Part shown: positions 7,431 through 14,301 of the stretch, piece after piece
How positions within the stretch are numbered: position 1 is the first letter of the stretch
Layout: every line of letters starts with the position of its first letter
Assembly: GCA_016190245.1 (NCBI GenBank)
Contig: JACPQY010000035.1
Span: forward strand, 1-44,734
Source: Nitrospirota bacterium
GTDB lineage: Bacteria; JACPQY01
Reading direction: 5' to 3'
DNA: 44,734 bases
The notes under the pieces: model-generated
What the model was told of the DNA's origin: nothing
The model's database searches: none
The model's input: the letters and a program-made list of their open reading frames with translations, nothing else
Translations under genes and position numbers: made by a program

Positions 7431-9647
7431 CTATGCTTCTTCGAGGGCGCGAAGTTCCGCGTCCGTTTGCCGCAGGCGGAGGGCCAGGGCGCGGGCGAGA
7501 CGGGCCATGATCTTGTTGCCAACCAGAGGGTGTCGCATGGCAAACGCGTCAAACCTGGCGCGGGAAAGAACGTACAGGTCCGTTGCTGCGCTTGCGACGG
7601 CATCCGCCGACCGTGGCGTGTGGTCCAAGAACGACATGTCGCCGAAGAAATCTCCGCGCGTAAAGGTGGCGAGATGATGGTGCTCGCCTCCCTGGAGCTG
7701 CAGGTTGATGCGCACCTCACCGCGACGGATCAAAAAGATCTCGTCGCCAGCAACCCCAACACTGAAGATCTTCTCTCTTTCCTTGCAGGAACGTGCCTCC
7801 ATGACAGCCTCCACCTCTTTCAAATCCTTCGGATCGATTCCGCGCATGAGATCGAACTGGTCCAACCCGAACGGCGGCTCCGCCTGTTTGGCGAGCAGAC
7901 CTTCTTCTTCGAGGATGCGGTCTTCCACCCATTCCAAAGCATCGTCCAACTCCTCCACCATCTTGACGTTTCGAGAGGGCTTGGCGAGTCCTACCTCGCT
8001 GAAGTAGGCTTCAAGGTTCTGTTCGGACGGCAGGTGATGCTCGAGGCCGGCAAAGATGAGAAATGCTTCACGCTCGGTGAGCTGGGCCTCGATCTGGTCC
8101 AACTTGTGCGCGGCCGTCACGTCCACCGATCGGACCGACCGCATGTCCAGAATGATGTACTTCCGCGTTCTCAGGTCCTCGTCGAGTTCCATCATGAGAC
8201 GGTCCGTTGTGCCGAAGAAGAGGTTCCCGACGAGTTCGTAAACGGCCGTCTGGCCGCCCTTCTTTTCGAGGGCGGCGGCTTCAGCGGGCAGCCGACGTTT
8301 CTTGGAGAAGGTGTGCTCGCCGGTCGTCTTCCTGCGGACGATCGGCTCCCTGACTTCCTCGCGCAGGAAAAGCAAGACGGCGATGCCCAGTCCGACCGCT
8401 TCTGCCGTGACCAGATCGACCGTGACCGTGACGATGGCCACGACGGCCACCACGAGGAAGTCCAGCCTCGTGGAACGGTTCTTGAGCAGGTGGAAGCTGT
8501 CCCGATCCACCATGCGGTAGGCCACGACAAGGAGAATTCCGGCCAGAGCCGCAAGCGGGATCCACGACACCCAGCGGGAGAACAACAGGAAGACCACCAG
8601 GACGAGAACTCCCTCCATGAGCCCCGAGAGGCGGGTCTTCGCGCCGCTGCTCAGATTGATCAGAGTCGCGCCCATCGTTCCGGAACCCGGCGCTCCGCCG
8701 ATGAGGCCGGACGCGACATTGCCAATGCCCTGTCCGATCAGTTCGCGATTCGAATTGCTCCGGGATCGTGTCAACGCGTCGACAATCACGCTGGTTTTCA
8801 GCGTATCGAGGGAAAGGAGAATCGCCAGCGTCAGGGCCGGAATGATCACCCACTTGAGTTGCGGCAGGGCGAGACTCGACAGGGCGCTCCACCGACCGAC
8901 CAGGCTGGAGAGGGACAGGGCCTCACGTCCGCCGACGGGGCCGATCACGAGATGGTTGTCGGTCAATTCCAGAAGGGCCGGCTGGAAATAGGCCATGGCG
9001 AAGTAGGCTCCGATTCCTCCCAGAAGGGCCAGGATGACGGCGGGCAGACGTCGGGTGATTTTCGGGCCGATCAACATTCCGCCGACCGTGACCAGTCCGA
9101 CCACGATTCCCTGCCAGCGCCAGAGTCCCGGATCGGTGAGGCCGCCCCAGAGGCCGGTGGACTTGGGGAAGCCGAAGAACTTCGGAATCTGCGCCGTGAA
9201 AATCACAATGGCAACCCCGCTGAGAAATCCGGCCACCACAGGGTAGGGAATGTATTTCATCAACTTTCCCCCGCCGAGCGCGCCGATCAGAAGCTGGAGC
9301 AGCCCGGCGGACACGCCGGTGACCGCGAGCAGCAACAACACGGTGGCCACGTCCGATGGATCCGACGCCGAGGATATCAGGCGGTAGAATTCCGCGGCAG
9401 TTGCAGCCACCACGGCGGCGGCGGGCGCGGAGGGCGAGGTGATGAGCCTCGGAGTTCCGCCGAACAACGGCGCCAAGATCCCCAAGGCAATGGCTCCGAT
9501 AACACCGGCGAGGGCACCCTGGGGGGCATAGGCCGAACCCATCGCGGAGAACATCACAACCCCGTAGGCGATGGATGAAGGAAGGGCCACGAGCGTCGCG
9601 GCAACGCCTCCCCAGATGTCGCCCGTGCGGCTCTCAGCCTTGTTCAT
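7431..9647 (-). CDS. SulP (SLC26-like) anion transporter with STAS and cyclic-nucleotide-binding domains
   Basis: 738 residues. Residues 10-400 are the SulP membrane domain (GDIWGGVAATLVALPSSIAY, SAMGSAYAPQGALAGVIGAI, the PRLITSPSAPAAAV segment). SulP members move sulfate, bicarbonate or other anions. Residues 430-560 are a STAS domain (TAVYELVGNLFFGTTDRLM, YIILDMRSVRSVDVTAA). Residues 610-735 are a Crp-like cyclic-nucleotide-binding domain. Its phosphate-binding cassette reads FFGDMSFLDHTPRSA: the Arg is kept, but Asp replaces the usual Glu after Gly. It lies next to the MotAB cluster but 153 bases away and probably has its own promoter. Ligand binding to the cNBD is inferred. Confidence 0.93.
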   Translation of the reverse strand: MNKAESRTGDIWGGVAATLVALPSSIAYGVVMFSAMGSAYAPQGALAGVIGAIALGILAPLFGGTPRLITSPSAPAAAVVAATAAEFYRLISSASDPSDVATVLLLLAVTGVSAGLLQLLIGALGGGKLMKYIPYPVVAGFLSGVAIVIFTAQIPKFFGFPKSTGLWGGLTDPGLWRWQGIVVGLVTVGGMLIGPKITRRLPAVILALLGGIGAYFAMAYFQPALLELTDNHLVIGPVGGREALSLSSLVGRWSALSSLALPQLKWVIIPALTLAILLSLDTLKTSVIVDALTRSRSNSNRELIGQGIGNVASGLIGGAPGSGTMGATLINLSSGAKTRLSGLMEGVLVLVVFLLFSRWVSWIPLAALAGILLVVAYRMVDRDSFHLLKNRSTRLDFLVVAVVAIVTVTVDLVTAEAVGLGIAVLLFLREEVREPIVRRKTTGEHTFSKKRRLPAEAAALEKKGGQTAVYELVGNLFFGTTDRLMMELDEDLRTRKYIILDMRSVRSVDVTAAHKLDQIEAQLTEREAFLIFAGLEHHLPSEQNLEAYFSEVGLAKPSRNVKMVEELDDALEWVEDRILEEEGLLAKQAEPPFGLDQFDLMRGIDPKDLKEVEAVMEARSCKEREKIFSVGVAGDEIFLIRRGEVRINLQLQGGEHHHLATFTRGDFFGDMSFLDHTPRSADAVASAATDLYVLSRARFDAFAMRHPLVGNKIMARLARALALRLRQTDAELRALEEA

Positions 9648-9800: not shown

Positions 9801-10505
9801 TCAGCCTTTCGGAGGTTTCGCAGGGGCCATCTTCTCCGTCGGGGCTGGGGCCGTGGAATAGATCATGATGTCAATTCGGCGGTTGAGGGCCTGGTTTTGA
9901 GGGAGCGGAACGCCCTCCTCGGTGTAGTCGGGGGCCACGGGGAGCGTATCGGCCGCAGCGATCGCGCGGATTCGGTTGGGGGCGAAGCCGCTCTCGATGA
10001 AGTAGCGCACGAAGTTCGTCGCGCGCGCGCCGGACAGCTCCCAGTTCGAAGGAAATTGCTCGGTCCGGATGGGCACGGTGTCCGAGTGGCCGATGACCTC
10101 GACGTTGTAGGAAATCGAGACGAGGTGCTCCACCACCTTCGTCATCTTCCGCCGCGCCTCCGGGAGCAACTCGGCGCTACCCGAGGCGAAGAAGGCCTCG
10201 CCCTTGGCCGTGAGGAGAATCCCGTCGGGCCGCTGGTTCACGGTGATGACATCCTGGAGATCCGCAAGGGAGATCAGGCGGTTGATGTCCTGGATCAAGT
10301 CTTCGCTGATTTTGCGTTCCGGGATCTCGACTCCGCCAATCTCATCCTGAATGGCCCCGGCCACGGCTGCGAGCTTCTTCTCATCGATGGTCGAGATAGA
10401 AACGAGCATGACGAAGAAAACCATGAGGTTCGTGACGAGGTCGCCGAAGCTGGCCAGCCAACCCGGCCCCTCGTCTCCGCCGCCGGCTTTTCGTGGGAGG
10501 GGCAC
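9801..10505 (-). CDS. motB: MotB-like stator protein
   Basis: 234 residues. The N-terminal membrane helix WLASFGDLVTNLMVFFVMLV (16-35) has the family Asp at residue 22, the proton- or sodium-carrying residue of MotB. Residues 105-220 are the OmpA-like peptidoglycan-binding domain (FFASGSAELLPEARRKM, VIGHSDTVPI, ELSGARATNFVRYF, NRRIDIMIY). The start is GTG 10505, with 24 bases between it and the MotA stop. It forms an ion-driven stator with MotA. A flagellar MotB cannot be told from the stator of another motor by sequence alone, and no flagellar gene is in this window. The upstream cNBD-FliG-like gene suggests an unusual rotor or regulator partner. Confidence 0.92.
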   Translation of the reverse strand: MPLPRKAGGGDEGPGWLASFGDLVTNLMVFFVMLVSISTIDEKKLAAVAGAIQDEIGGVEIPERKISEDLIQDINRLISLADLQDVITVNQRPDGILLTAKGEAFFASGSAELLPEARRKMTKVVEHLVSISYNVEVIGHSDTVPIRTEQFPSNWELSGARATNFVRYFIESGFAPNRIRAIAAADTLPVAPDYTEEGVPLPQNQALNRRIDIMIYSTAPAPTEKMAPAKPPKG

Positions 10506-10529: not shown

Positions 10530-11363
10530 CTACGCGGCCTTTCCCTTGGCCTCGCCGGCCGGGGCGGCTTTCTGCCCCTCCGCGGCCACTGACTTCACGC
10601 CACCCCACTTGCGCATGGGAAGGTAGGCCTTGAGGCGATCGTGCACGAGGTCCGGCGGCTGCCGCGTGGCCAGAAGCGTGAGCCCTTCCATGATCACGTT
10701 CATGAGCACCGTGCGCTGCTCGATCCGCTTGTCGTACTTCGTGGCAATCGGAAGGAAGATCATGTTGGCGAGGATGACGCCGTAGAACGTGGTGATGAGC
10801 GAAACGGCCATGCCCGTACCGATCGTCTCCAGGGCCCCTCCCGCTCCCAAGCCCTGGAGCATGGCGATCAGACCGATCAGCGTGCCGAGGAGGCCGAACG
10901 CCGGGGCGTAGTTGGCGAGGGACTTGAAGACCGCGGCCTCGCCCTTCCCTTGGTCGTACATCGTCTGCATCGACGCTTGCAGGTACTCGCGGATCTTGTC
11001 TATCGGCCTTTGGTCCACCAGCATCTGCAGGCCGTCCTTCAGGAACTCGTTTTCCTGACCCTCGAGCGCGCCGCCCATCTTCATGGTGCCTTTCGCAAAC
11101 ACCTGTTTGGAGAGCTCGACGATCTGGTTGATGTACGTGTCAATCGGCAGGTCCTCCTGCCTGAACACGTCCATGGCCACGCGGAGAGAACGGGTGACGT
11201 CTTTCATTGGAAAGGAAACAAACATGGCCCCGATGGTTCCTCCCAGCACAATGCCTATGCTGGGGATGTTGAAGAAGACCCCCACCTGAGGGGTGGAGGC
11301 GAACAGCGACCAAATCAGGATGGTCATACCTGCTACCATCCCGAGCAAGGTCGCGATATTCAC
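10530..11363 (-). CDS. motA: MotA-like stator protein
   Basis: 277 residues, normal for MotA. Four membrane segments are visible: residues 3-21, 30-50, about 148-170 and 178-203. The conserved prolines are kept in LANYAPAFGLLGTLIGL and ILANMIFLPIATKYDKR. The cytoplasmic loop carries the charged stretch FLKDGLQMLVDQRPIDKIRE, the region that touches FliG in flagellar motors. The C-terminal tail is Ala/Lys-rich. The start is GTG 11363 with GAGG just upstream, 21 bases after the cNBD-FliG-like gene. The order cNBD-FliG, motA, motB on one strand with short gaps indicates one operon. Confidence 0.94.
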   Translation of the reverse strand: MNIATLLGMVAGMTILIWSLFASTPQVGVFFNIPSIGIVLGGTIGAMFVSFPMKDVTRSLRVAMDVFRQEDLPIDTYINQIVELSKQVFAKGTMKMGGALEGQENEFLKDGLQMLVDQRPIDKIREYLQASMQTMYDQGKGEAAVFKSLANYAPAFGLLGTLIGLIAMLQGLGAGGALETIGTGMAVSLITTFYGVILANMIFLPIATKYDKRIEQRTVLMNVIMEGLTLLATRQPPDLVHDRLKAYLPMRKWGGVKSVAAEGQKAAPAGEAKGKAA

Positions 11364-11384: not shown

Positions 11385-12599
11385 TCAGGCGACAGGCGCA
11401 GGGGCCGCGCCGCCCGCACTGGCTTTCTTCATCGCCTTGATCTGCCCGATGATGTTCTCCTCGATCTCCGCGACTTCGATCTCGTCCGCGTCTTCCACCT
11501 GGCCCATCTGTTCCTTGACCATCTGGGCCATGCGGTCGGAGAGATTCGCATAGATTTTCTTCTGGGCGTCTTCCTCGGCGTGCTTGATGACCTTGCACAG
11601 GTTGATCACATCCGTCTGGCCGAGGATCTGGCGGAGGGTCGTGTTGTCCACGAAGATGACGTCGTTGATCCCTTCCAGCTCTTCGATCTTCTTGGCCCGG
11701 CGCGAGGTCTTCTCGAAAAAGTCCTTCCCTTTCTCCGTGGCCCAGCCGATGGCCTCGCTGCGGCGGAAGAAGAAGATGTTCTCCGGCACTTCCTTGGCCG
11801 CGATCTTTTTGTACACGTTATCCGACTTCGTCCCCACGAGCTGCGAGAACGTGCTGATGTCAATCAGCTCCTGCTCCTGCTTGAAGCCCTGCGTGACGGA
11901 CGAGTCCATCTCCTTGGCGATCCCGCGGACGTTCTCGAGGAAGTTGGCGATGTCCGTGATGGTGAGCATGCGGTCGGTGGTCTTGGACGGGGCGGTGATC
12001 ACGATCTGGCGGACTCCCGCCATCTTCTTGAGGATGTTCTCCACGTCCGCGCCGGTCAGCGAGAGGGCCTCGCGGATGCGCGTCAGCACGTCGCGGAAGG
12101 GGAACGTCACGCTCTTGGCCACAACCCCGCCGTCTTTCCCGCCAGCGCCACCCTTCTCGCCGCCACCGCCCGCCGCCGCCCCACCCCCTTGGGACTTCGC
12201 CAAAAGGTCGAGAATCACCGCCACGCTCAGGAACGGGTTGTCGCTCACCTGGGCGCTGACCTGATCTACGGTCTTCCGCAGGCGAGTCACGAGGGAACGG
12301 ATGAGGATGGATAGAATCTTCGGCGCCTGGTTGAGAAGGCTGGTGAACCCGTCCAGGTCGAGGATCAGAATTTCGGTCGGCTCGAGCGTGATGGCCGAGG
12401 CGGAGCGATCCTGCTGGGTAATCAGGGCCATCTCGCCGAACAGAGAACCGGGGCCCAAGGTTTCGAGGAGGAGCTTCTTGCCGTCCACCGTCTTGGTGAT
12501 CTCGACTTTCCCGGACTTGATCAGGTAGGCCGCATCCCCTTTGGCCCCCTCTCTGAAGATGACCGTGTCTTTGTTGATGAGTTTGGTGGGAACGGCCAT
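11385..12599 (-). CDS. Cyclic-nucleotide-binding protein with FliG-like C-terminal domain
   Basis: 404 residues. Residues 5-120 are a Crp-type cNMP-binding domain. Its phosphate-binding cassette FGEMALITQQDRSAS has Gly55-Glu56 and Arg65, all expected for binding. Residues 138-160 are a Gly-rich linker. Residues 165-300 are helical (DVENILKKMAGVRQIVI, ITDIANFLENVRGIAKEMD) and may be FliG middle-domain-like. Residues 311-392 match the FliG torque-domain pattern: INDVIFVDNTTLRQILGQTD corresponds to the FEDxxxLDDRxIQ helix, CKVIKHAEEDAQKKIYANLS to LKGASEEVKEKIxxNMS, and RMAQMVKEQM to RAAEMLKED. There is no DNA-binding domain. ATG 12599 follows TAGGAGG. It is the first gene of the motA-motB operon. 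The FliG match is my own reading of the motifs and needs a profile or structure check. Confidence 0.8.
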   Translation of the reverse strand: MAVPTKLINKDTVIFREGAKGDAAYLIKSGKVEITKTVDGKKLLLETLGPGSLFGEMALITQQDRSASAITLEPTEILILDLDGFTSLLNQAPKILSILIRSLVTRLRKTVDQVSAQVSDNPFLSVAVILDLLAKSQGGGAAAGGGGEKGGAGGKDGGVVAKSVTFPFRDVLTRIREALSLTGADVENILKKMAGVRQIVITAPSKTTDRMLTITDIANFLENVRGIAKEMDSSVTQGFKQEQELIDISTFSQLVGTKSDNVYKKIAAKEVPENIFFFRRSEAIGWATEKGKDFFEKTSRRAKKIEELEGINDVIFVDNTTLRQILGQTDVINLCKVIKHAEEDAQKKIYANLSDRMAQMVKEQMGQVEDADEIEVAEIEENIIGQIKAMKKASAGGAAPAPVA

Positions 12600-12936: not shown

Positions 12937-14301
12937 ATGAGGTTCCTCCACCCGAATCATCCCCTCAAAACGATCTGGGACGTGCTGGTCATCGTGGCCA
13001 CCGTGATCGCCTGCGTGGAGTCGCCCCTCCGGATCACCCTCAACTACCCGATGACGGACGGGCTGCTCCGGTACGACCTCCTGGTCTCCCTCATGTTTGT
13101 TGCGGATGTCATGATCAATTTCGTTGCTCCCCTGCAGGAGGGGAAGAAGCTTATCACCGATCCGCGCATGATCGCCGGGCGATATCTGCGGGGCTGGTTT
13201 GTGATTGATCTCCTCTCCGCCCTTCCTTTCGATCTGCTTCTTGGTGGAATGGCAGGGGGGACCGCCAACCGGATGCTTCGACTGTTGCGCCTGACGCGAC
13301 TTCTGAGGCTCGTACGGCTCGCTCAGTTCATGCGGAAGATCAGTCGGAGGAGCGCCGTGGCTCCCGGGGTGCTCCGAATGGCCTATCTCGTTTTCTGGAT
13401 CCTCATGGCCGCCCATTTCACGGCCTGCATCTGGCTCTATCTGGGGGCGGGCAACTCCGCGGGGACGAGTGGGAACTATGCCATGGACGACAGTGTCCGG
13501 AACTACGTTCGGGCGCTGTACTGGGTCACCACGACCCTGACGACGATCGGATACGGAGACATCGCGCCCGTCACCAACGTTCAGACGGTCTTCACCATGT
13601 TTGTTCAACTCATGGGCGCCGGCATGTACGGTTTCGTCATCGGCAATATTGCCAACTTGATCGCCAACCTGGACGTGGCCAAGGCGCAGCACCGGGAGAA
13701 GATGGAAAAGATCGCGACGTTCATGAAATACAAGAGCATCCCGGCGGACACGCAGAACAAGGTCGAAGATTACTACGGCTATCTCTGGGAGACACGGCGG
13801 GGGTACAACGAATTCCAGATCGTGGAAGACTTTCCGAGGCCCCTGCGCGCGGAGGTTCTGATGTTCCTGAACCGGGAGATGATCCAGAAGGTGCCCATCT
13901 TCGAGGGGGCCTCCCTCGACTTCCTGACGGAGATCGTTCTGAGCCTGAAACCCGTTGTCTATCCGCCCGGGAGCTACGTGTTCAAGAAGGGAAGCGTGGG
14001 ACGCAACATGTATTTCATCAGCCGGGGAACCATTGAGGTTGTGTCGGAGGACGGGGAAACGGTTTTCGCCACCCTAACCGGCGGGAACTTCTTCGGCGAG
14101 ATTGCGCTCCTGCTGGACCAGCCGCGGACAGCCAGCATCCGATCGGCGGACTACTCCGACCTCTACACGATTGATAAGGAGACGTTCGAGAGGGTATTGA
14201 AGAACTACCCGGAGGTTGAAAGCCAGATCCAGGAGTTTGCGCGCAAGAGGCAGGAAGAGATGAAGAAGGAGTCCGCCAAGAGGGGCTCCACGCCCTCGTG
14301 A
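12937..14301 (+). CDS. Cyclic-nucleotide-gated-type K+ channel (SthK-like layout)
   Basis: 454 residues from ATG 12937. An upstream in-frame reading from 12718 passes through the dispersed repeat and is rejected. There are six membrane segments. The S4-like voltage-sensor helix has a basic residue about every third position (RMLRLLRLTRLLRLVRLAQF). The pore helix and filter TTTLTTIGYGDIAP give a K+-type GYGD filter. After S6 (FVIGNIANLIANL) come a C-linker and a cNMP-binding domain at about residues 325-435. Its cassette FFGEIALLLDQPRTAS is complete, with GE and Arg. The domain order matches prokaryotic CNG/HCN-like channels. It is divergent from the cNBD-FliG-motAB operon. The gating nucleotide is not predictable. 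Confidence 0.93.
   Translation: MRFLHPNHPLKTIWDVLVIVATVIACVESPLRITLNYPMTDGLLRYDLLVSLMFVADVMINFVAPLQEGKKLITDPRMIAGRYLRGWFVIDLLSALPFDLLLGGMAGGTANRMLRLLRLTRLLRLVRLAQFMRKISRRSAVAPGVLRMAYLVFWILMAAHFTACIWLYLGAGNSAGTSGNYAMDDSVRNYVRALYWVTTTLTTIGYGDIAPVTNVQTVFTMFVQLMGAGMYGFVIGNIANLIANLDVAKAQHREKMEKIATFMKYKSIPADTQNKVEDYYGYLWETRRGYNEFQIVEDFPRPLRAEVLMFLNREMIQKVPIFEGASLDFLTEIVLSLKPVVYPPGSYVFKKGSVGRNMYFISRGTIEVVSEDGETVFATLTGGNFFGEIALLLDQPRTASIRSADYSDLYTIDKETFERVLKNYPEVESQIQEFARKRQEEMKKESAKRGSTPS

Follow-up and report, generated by a model that had tools for sequence, protein, structure and literature searches.

The window, meaning the whole stretch of 44,734 nucleotides that was analysed, carries a gene for a 404-amino-acid protein which combines an N-terminal cyclic-nucleotide-binding domain (cNBD) with a homologue of the C-terminal torque domain of FliG (FliG_C), and this gene is followed directly by motA and motB (Table 1). 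A preliminary description of this DNA had placed motA and motB next in order at short spacing; both gaps were given correctly, and both genes are Pfam-significant. Three neighbouring genes between positions 7431 and 14301, encoding the SulP transporter, the cNBD-FliG_C protein and the ion channel, contain a cNBD, and all are tied to ion-conducting membrane proteins.

Table 1. Genes and protein features of the cNBD-FliG_C locus (positions in the window)
Feature	Position	Strand	Basis
cNBD-FliG_C gene, 404 aa	11385..12599	-	ORF, ATG start, AGGAGG just 5'
cNBD, residues 9-91	12327..12575	-	PF00027, E 2.9e-23; model pLDDT 80-95
Gly-rich low-confidence linker, residues 138-160	12120..12188	-	Sequence; pLDDT <50
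Middle region, residues 161-303, homologous in Burkholderiaceae	11691..12119	-	Profile E 2e-6 alone
FliG_C torque-domain homologue, residues 307-392	11424..11681	-	PF01706, E 1.1e-10; Z 12-14 vs FliG structures (model biased by FliG rows)
MotA of the operon	10530..11363	-	Pfam MotA_ExbB; Phe89, Gly97; 21-base gap after cNBD-FliG_C gene
MotB with plug, OmpA-like peptidoglycan-binding domain and channel Asp22	9801..10505	-	PF13677, E 1.1e-15; PF00691, E 1.5e-14; 24-base gap
SulP anion transporter-STAS-cNBD; follows the operon in both genomes of the phylum	7431..9647	-	Pfam; counterpart in the second genome (G001), L036 2529-4748
Divergent ion channel with cNBD	12937..14301	+	Pfam; not adjacent in G001

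The cyclic-nucleotide cassette that had been read in the N-terminal part, FGEMALITQQDRSAS, is present, and the Pfam search identified a cNBD there. The F, G, E and R of the cassette are near-invariant across the cNBD alignment, and the Glu and Arg of the phosphate-binding cassette are both present. The FliG C-terminal pattern, previously placed at residues 311-392, was likewise borne out by a match to PF01706 that scored 42.2 bits, above the cut-off of 23.3. When the C-terminal half alone was used as the query, every match in the PDB was either a chain of flagellar FliG or a fusion of FliF with FliG (best E 1.4e-5, phmmer).

The protein is nevertheless not a FliG, and it falls short of FliG in three defining features that were tested. 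No Pfam match to FliG_N or FliG_M was obtained at the expected places, the EHPQR, MFXF and FliM-binding motifs are absent from the 404-residue sequence, and neither a membrane part nor a FliF-binding part was detected by sequence inspection or Pfam. The score against the fliG equivalog TIGR00207 was 31.8 bits, below the curated cut-off of 226.7. Pfam also gave no match to a PilZ domain in this protein. Its FliG_C homologue may act on MotA as FliG_C does.

By sequence, the cNBD and its C-helix are closest to Crp-like proteins (136 bits over residues 6-140). The middle region matched no Pfam family and showed weak winged-helix-like and MerR-HTH-like structural resemblance (Z <5, VIA-align); no helix-turn-helix family was found above noise.

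A structural match to FliG-C had been proposed as a test of the preliminary description. The full-length model, built without FliG rows in the alignment, was confident for the cNBD only and poor in the FliG_C part. In a model of the C-terminal half, whose alignment included FliG rows and so favours the FliG fold, FliG_C had a pLDDT of 83-91. With the same bias, this model matched FliG structures at Z 12-14 with an rmsd of 1.5-1.7 over 86-89 residues, and the matches included 8ucs_H, the FliG chain bound to MotAB.

FliG_C binds between two MotA cytoplasmic domains (PMC11302681), and the contacts in E. coli are those of MotA R90 with FliG D288-D289 and of MotA E98 with FliG R281 (PMC12505986). 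At the equivalents of E. coli FliG K264, R281, D288, D289 and R297, the flagellar FliGs compared all have K, R, acidic, acidic and R/K, whereas the proteins of the window and of a second genome of the phylum, G001, have K, R, E, Q and D, and homologues from Burkholderiaceae (described below) have A, A/V/T, W, V/L/I and D/N. In all cNBD-FliG_C members, position 289 is non-acidic and position 297 is Asp or Asn, not Arg or Lys. Judged by these positions, the FliG_C of this family is not a normal torque surface.

The partner MotA is altered as well. In the window and in G001, R90 is replaced by Phe and E98 by Gly, and among 106 MotAs compared, which were best matches and not a random sample, these two are the only ones that have lost both residues; R/K was found at position 90 in 99 and E/D at position 98 in 96. 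The MotA of the Burkholderiaceae operons keeps Lys/Glu at 90/98. Since the Burkholderiaceae FliG_C domains have none of the 264, 281 and 288 equivalents while their MotA retains these residues, the docking mode may differ there. In the window's lineage, and there only, the substitutions at the contact positions suggest that the two partners are insulated from the flagellar FliG. The window's MotA has kept the channel prolines P173 and P222, and MotB has kept its plug, its Asp and its OmpA domain; because the plug, the Asp and the prolines are kept, the motor should conduct ions.

Within the phylum, the comparison comprised one other genome, G001, which belongs to a different genus. There, the cNBD-FliG_C gene is divided between the ends of two contigs, which share an overlapping sequence, and it is followed by motA, motB and the SulP-cNBD gene in the same order; the cNBD ion channel is probably outside the conserved unit. 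Identity between the window and G001 is 73% for the C-terminal and 62% for the N-terminal half of the cNBD-FliG_C protein, 91-92% for MotA and 78% for MotB. Of the three stators, the window's has the best conserved MotA between the two genera (91%, versus 87% for the flagellar MotA and 64% for the third MotA). The cNBD-FliG_C gene is conserved with a dN/dS of about 0.16-0.27, and the operon genes have values of 0.05-0.27, in both cases for the window versus G001 with dS near saturation. Because the gene is conserved and the PDB matches of its C-terminal half are all FliG, the assignment as a cNBD-FliG_C protein is not a matter of chance.

The absence of flagellar genes stated in the preliminary description holds for the window and not for the genome, which is 85% complete and has fliF, fliG and fliM on other contigs. 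The single canonical FliG is encoded on contig 29, next to fliH- and fliI-like genes (neighbours read by eye), and a flagellar cluster, motA-motB-motB-fliM-fliN, is located on contig 56. The genome has one FliF and one FliM; a second FliF or FliM was not found in this 85% complete assembly. There are two stator sets besides the window's. The third motAB pair (L077, C52, 8385-9957) keeps the canonical residues for FliG contact, and its neighbours include no recognised flagellar gene. Four class III nucleotide cyclase homologues are also encoded. With FliF, FliM and canonical FliG present once each, the genome should have a flagellum but no second rotor set, and MCP genes lie beside some of the Burkholderiaceae operons; nothing found here speaks positively for the suggestion that the motor powers gliding or another envelope machine.

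Beyond the phylum, a tblastn search of plasmid records matched the protein to eight Burkholderiaceae megaplasmids or chromids, from residue 13 to residues 338-356 (E 1e-17 to 2e-23; 21-26% identity, colinear). In 8/8 of these records, motA and motB follow the homologue on the same strand, so that the order cNBD-FliG, motA, motB, for which a search had been recommended, is conserved across phyla, in G001 and in the Burkholderiaceae. The single annotated record names the three products "cyclic nucleotide-binding domain-containing protein", "flagellar motor protein" and "OmpA family protein". A Burkholderiaceae-only profile matched the window's protein over residues 12-400; with the database size set to a million, the E-values were 2e-17 for the part without the cNBD, 2e-6 for the middle region alone and 2e-5 for FliG_C alone. 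In the Burkholderiaceae homologues FliG_C falls below the Pfam cut-off (E 0.003 and 0.02), which is why it is unnamed there. The operon is flanked by MCP genes in B. cenocepacia and Paraburkholderia PGU19 and by EAL genes in P. hospita. Colinear homologues accompanied by motAB in the Burkholderiaceae indicate that the system, as far as sequences tell, is either old or was transferred long ago.

In 386 genomes from across the domain, a profile of the C-terminal half picked up no member beyond the two of the phylum, and neither of two contig scans yielded a relative. These genome searches used peptide patterns and a two-sequence profile, queries too narrow to prove absence, since members exist in the Burkholderiaceae. 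No relative was found in phages. The homologues beyond the phylum come from plasmid records, and sampling elsewhere was shallow. No description of a cNBD-FliG_C fusion was found in the open-access literature.

Other arrangements of these domains were also encountered. The idea that a cNBD generally accompanies motAB was rejected: one of 98 sampled MotA loci of other genomes had a cNBD just upstream, which is weak. At that locus (L182, G189:C19, 4361-6525) a 185-residue cNBD protein directly precedes motA and motB, and its MotA has Gly instead of Glu98. In an unrelated lineage (L115, G032:C81, 4584-6854), a stand-alone cNBD protein of 136 residues, without FliG_C, is followed by motA and motB; this locus, met via the chance overlap of two lists and from the one genome in its phylum, was left out of the 98-locus count. 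A further cluster (L120, G055:C2, 4998-8713) consists of motA, motB, a gene for a membrane coiled-coil protein and a complete fliG (N, M and C domains); further flagellar genes were not recognised in the stretch read, and the cluster possibly encodes a MotAB-FliG machine that departs from the usual flagellar arrangement. FliG_C near motAB also occurs at L122 (G329:C13). A protein of about 645-649 residues with FliG_C (G339, L064, C82, 277-2214) looks like a FliF-like/FliG/TPR fusion and was not counted in the cNBD-FliG_C family.

The explanation that we favour, and to which we give about an even chance, is that the cNBD-FliG_C protein serves a dedicated MotAB stator as a pseudo-rotor that responds to nucleotide and holds or releases its own MotAB. 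It is based on the full-length homology of the cNBD/middle/FliG_C fusion, on the first position of its gene in a motA-motB operon in every member and on the shifted contact residues. The FliG_C-like domain would dock in the pincer that neighbouring MotA subunits form with their cytoplasmic domains, like FliG_C in the solved stator complex, and nucleotide on the cNBD would change the exposure or the oligomeric state of this domain. The docked protein would act as a clutch or holder, which keeps its own stator from work or frees it, whether at the flagellum or at another site in the envelope, and the main flagellar drive would still be the MotAB set beside fliM. With the EAL neighbours in P. hospita, c-di-GMP is a possible ligand of the family. 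A tentative and rather doubtful further step is that the locus represents an unnamed conserved rotary module, whose MotAB is switched by a cyclic nucleotide via a built-in FliG-like partner, apart from the flagellum.

The preliminary description had regarded the protein as a rotor-side or clutch-like partner that makes MotAB respond to a nucleotide. The architecture and the operon agree with such a partner, neither of the two results it had named as refuting, an absent structural match or an unconserved neighbourhood, was obtained, and the notion of a true rotor is weakened by the torque residues and by the absent FliF- and FliM-binding domains. As a true rotor subunit, the protein would form a ring of copies via its cNBD or middle region, pushed by this MotAB in a machine that is additional or not flagellar; the nucleotide would set assembly or clutching. 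A FliG_C homologue and a dedicated MotAB do share one operon, both sides of the contact are altered in the window's lineage, and motA-motB-membrane protein-fliG clusters in other genomes indicate that MotAB-FliG sets exist in other layouts. However, every anchoring part of FliG listed above is missing, the genome, though 85% complete, yielded only one FliF and one FliM, and the torque residues vary within the family, so that this reading is unlikely.

We consider it quite unlikely that the protein is instead a modulator of the flagellar motor, whose FliG_C-like domain, when nucleotide is bound, competes with the flagellar FliG or caps flagellar stators, similarly to YcgR, MotI or EpsE. The flagellar set of the genome, the MCP and EAL genes beside the Burkholderiaceae operons and the Lys/Glu kept by their MotA at the FliG contacts would suit such a role, but the gene is always beside its own motAB and never with flagellar genes, and the window's MotA is without the usual contacts for flagellar FliG. 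It is improbable that the protein is a Crp-like transcription regulator of the motAB operon with helix-turn-helix segments in mid-protein and a FliG_C-like relic or dimerisation domain. The Crp-like cNBD and C-helix and the weak winged-helix and MerR-like matches speak for it; against it are the lack of a helix-turn-helix family above noise, the structural Z scores below 5 and the FliG_C homologue, whose position is the same throughout the family.

Second-messenger control of flagellar stators is mainly exerted by c-di-GMP and PilZ proteins. Among the motor clutches and brakes, YcgR and MotI have PilZ domains and EpsE has a glycosyltransferase fold, and they respond to c-di-GMP or to no nucleotide. 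Like them, the pseudo-rotor proposed here would be a soluble protein that links a signal in the cell to the engagement of stator and rotor, and it would differ in using a cNBD and a FliG_C homologue instead of a PilZ domain or glycosyltransferase fold. EpsE is described as a flagellar clutch or brake (PMC3000366). With FliG, the protein shares a homologous C-terminal subdomain of the same predicted fold, in which the K264, R281 and D288 equivalents are kept in the window (D288 as E); unlike FliG, it has no N or M domain and no FliM-binding or MFXF motif, is changed at 289 and 297, begins with a cNBD and is encoded with motAB. It is like Crp/Fnr-type proteins in its cNBD and C-helix, and unlike them it has a FliG_C tail and no recognisable DNA-binding domain. 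The stator corresponds to flagellar-type MotAB (FIT group, PMC12505986) in its MotA_ExbB channel, MotB plug, OmpA domain and channel residues, and differs in that the window's MotA is without both FliG-contact residues and the operon is headed by the cNBD-FliG_C gene.

In conclusion, because the cNBD-FliG_C gene lies directly before motA-motB in two deeply separated bacterial groups, the locus suggests that a small signalling molecule may tell a MotAB motor when to run. The altered contact residues are a natural experiment on stator-rotor recognition, and genetics is feasible, as the family occurs in culturable Burkholderiaceae, where the one annotated record calls it just a cNBD protein. The fusion of a cNBD with the domain that MotA acts upon would be a direct connection between a cyclic nucleotide and an ion-driven motor.
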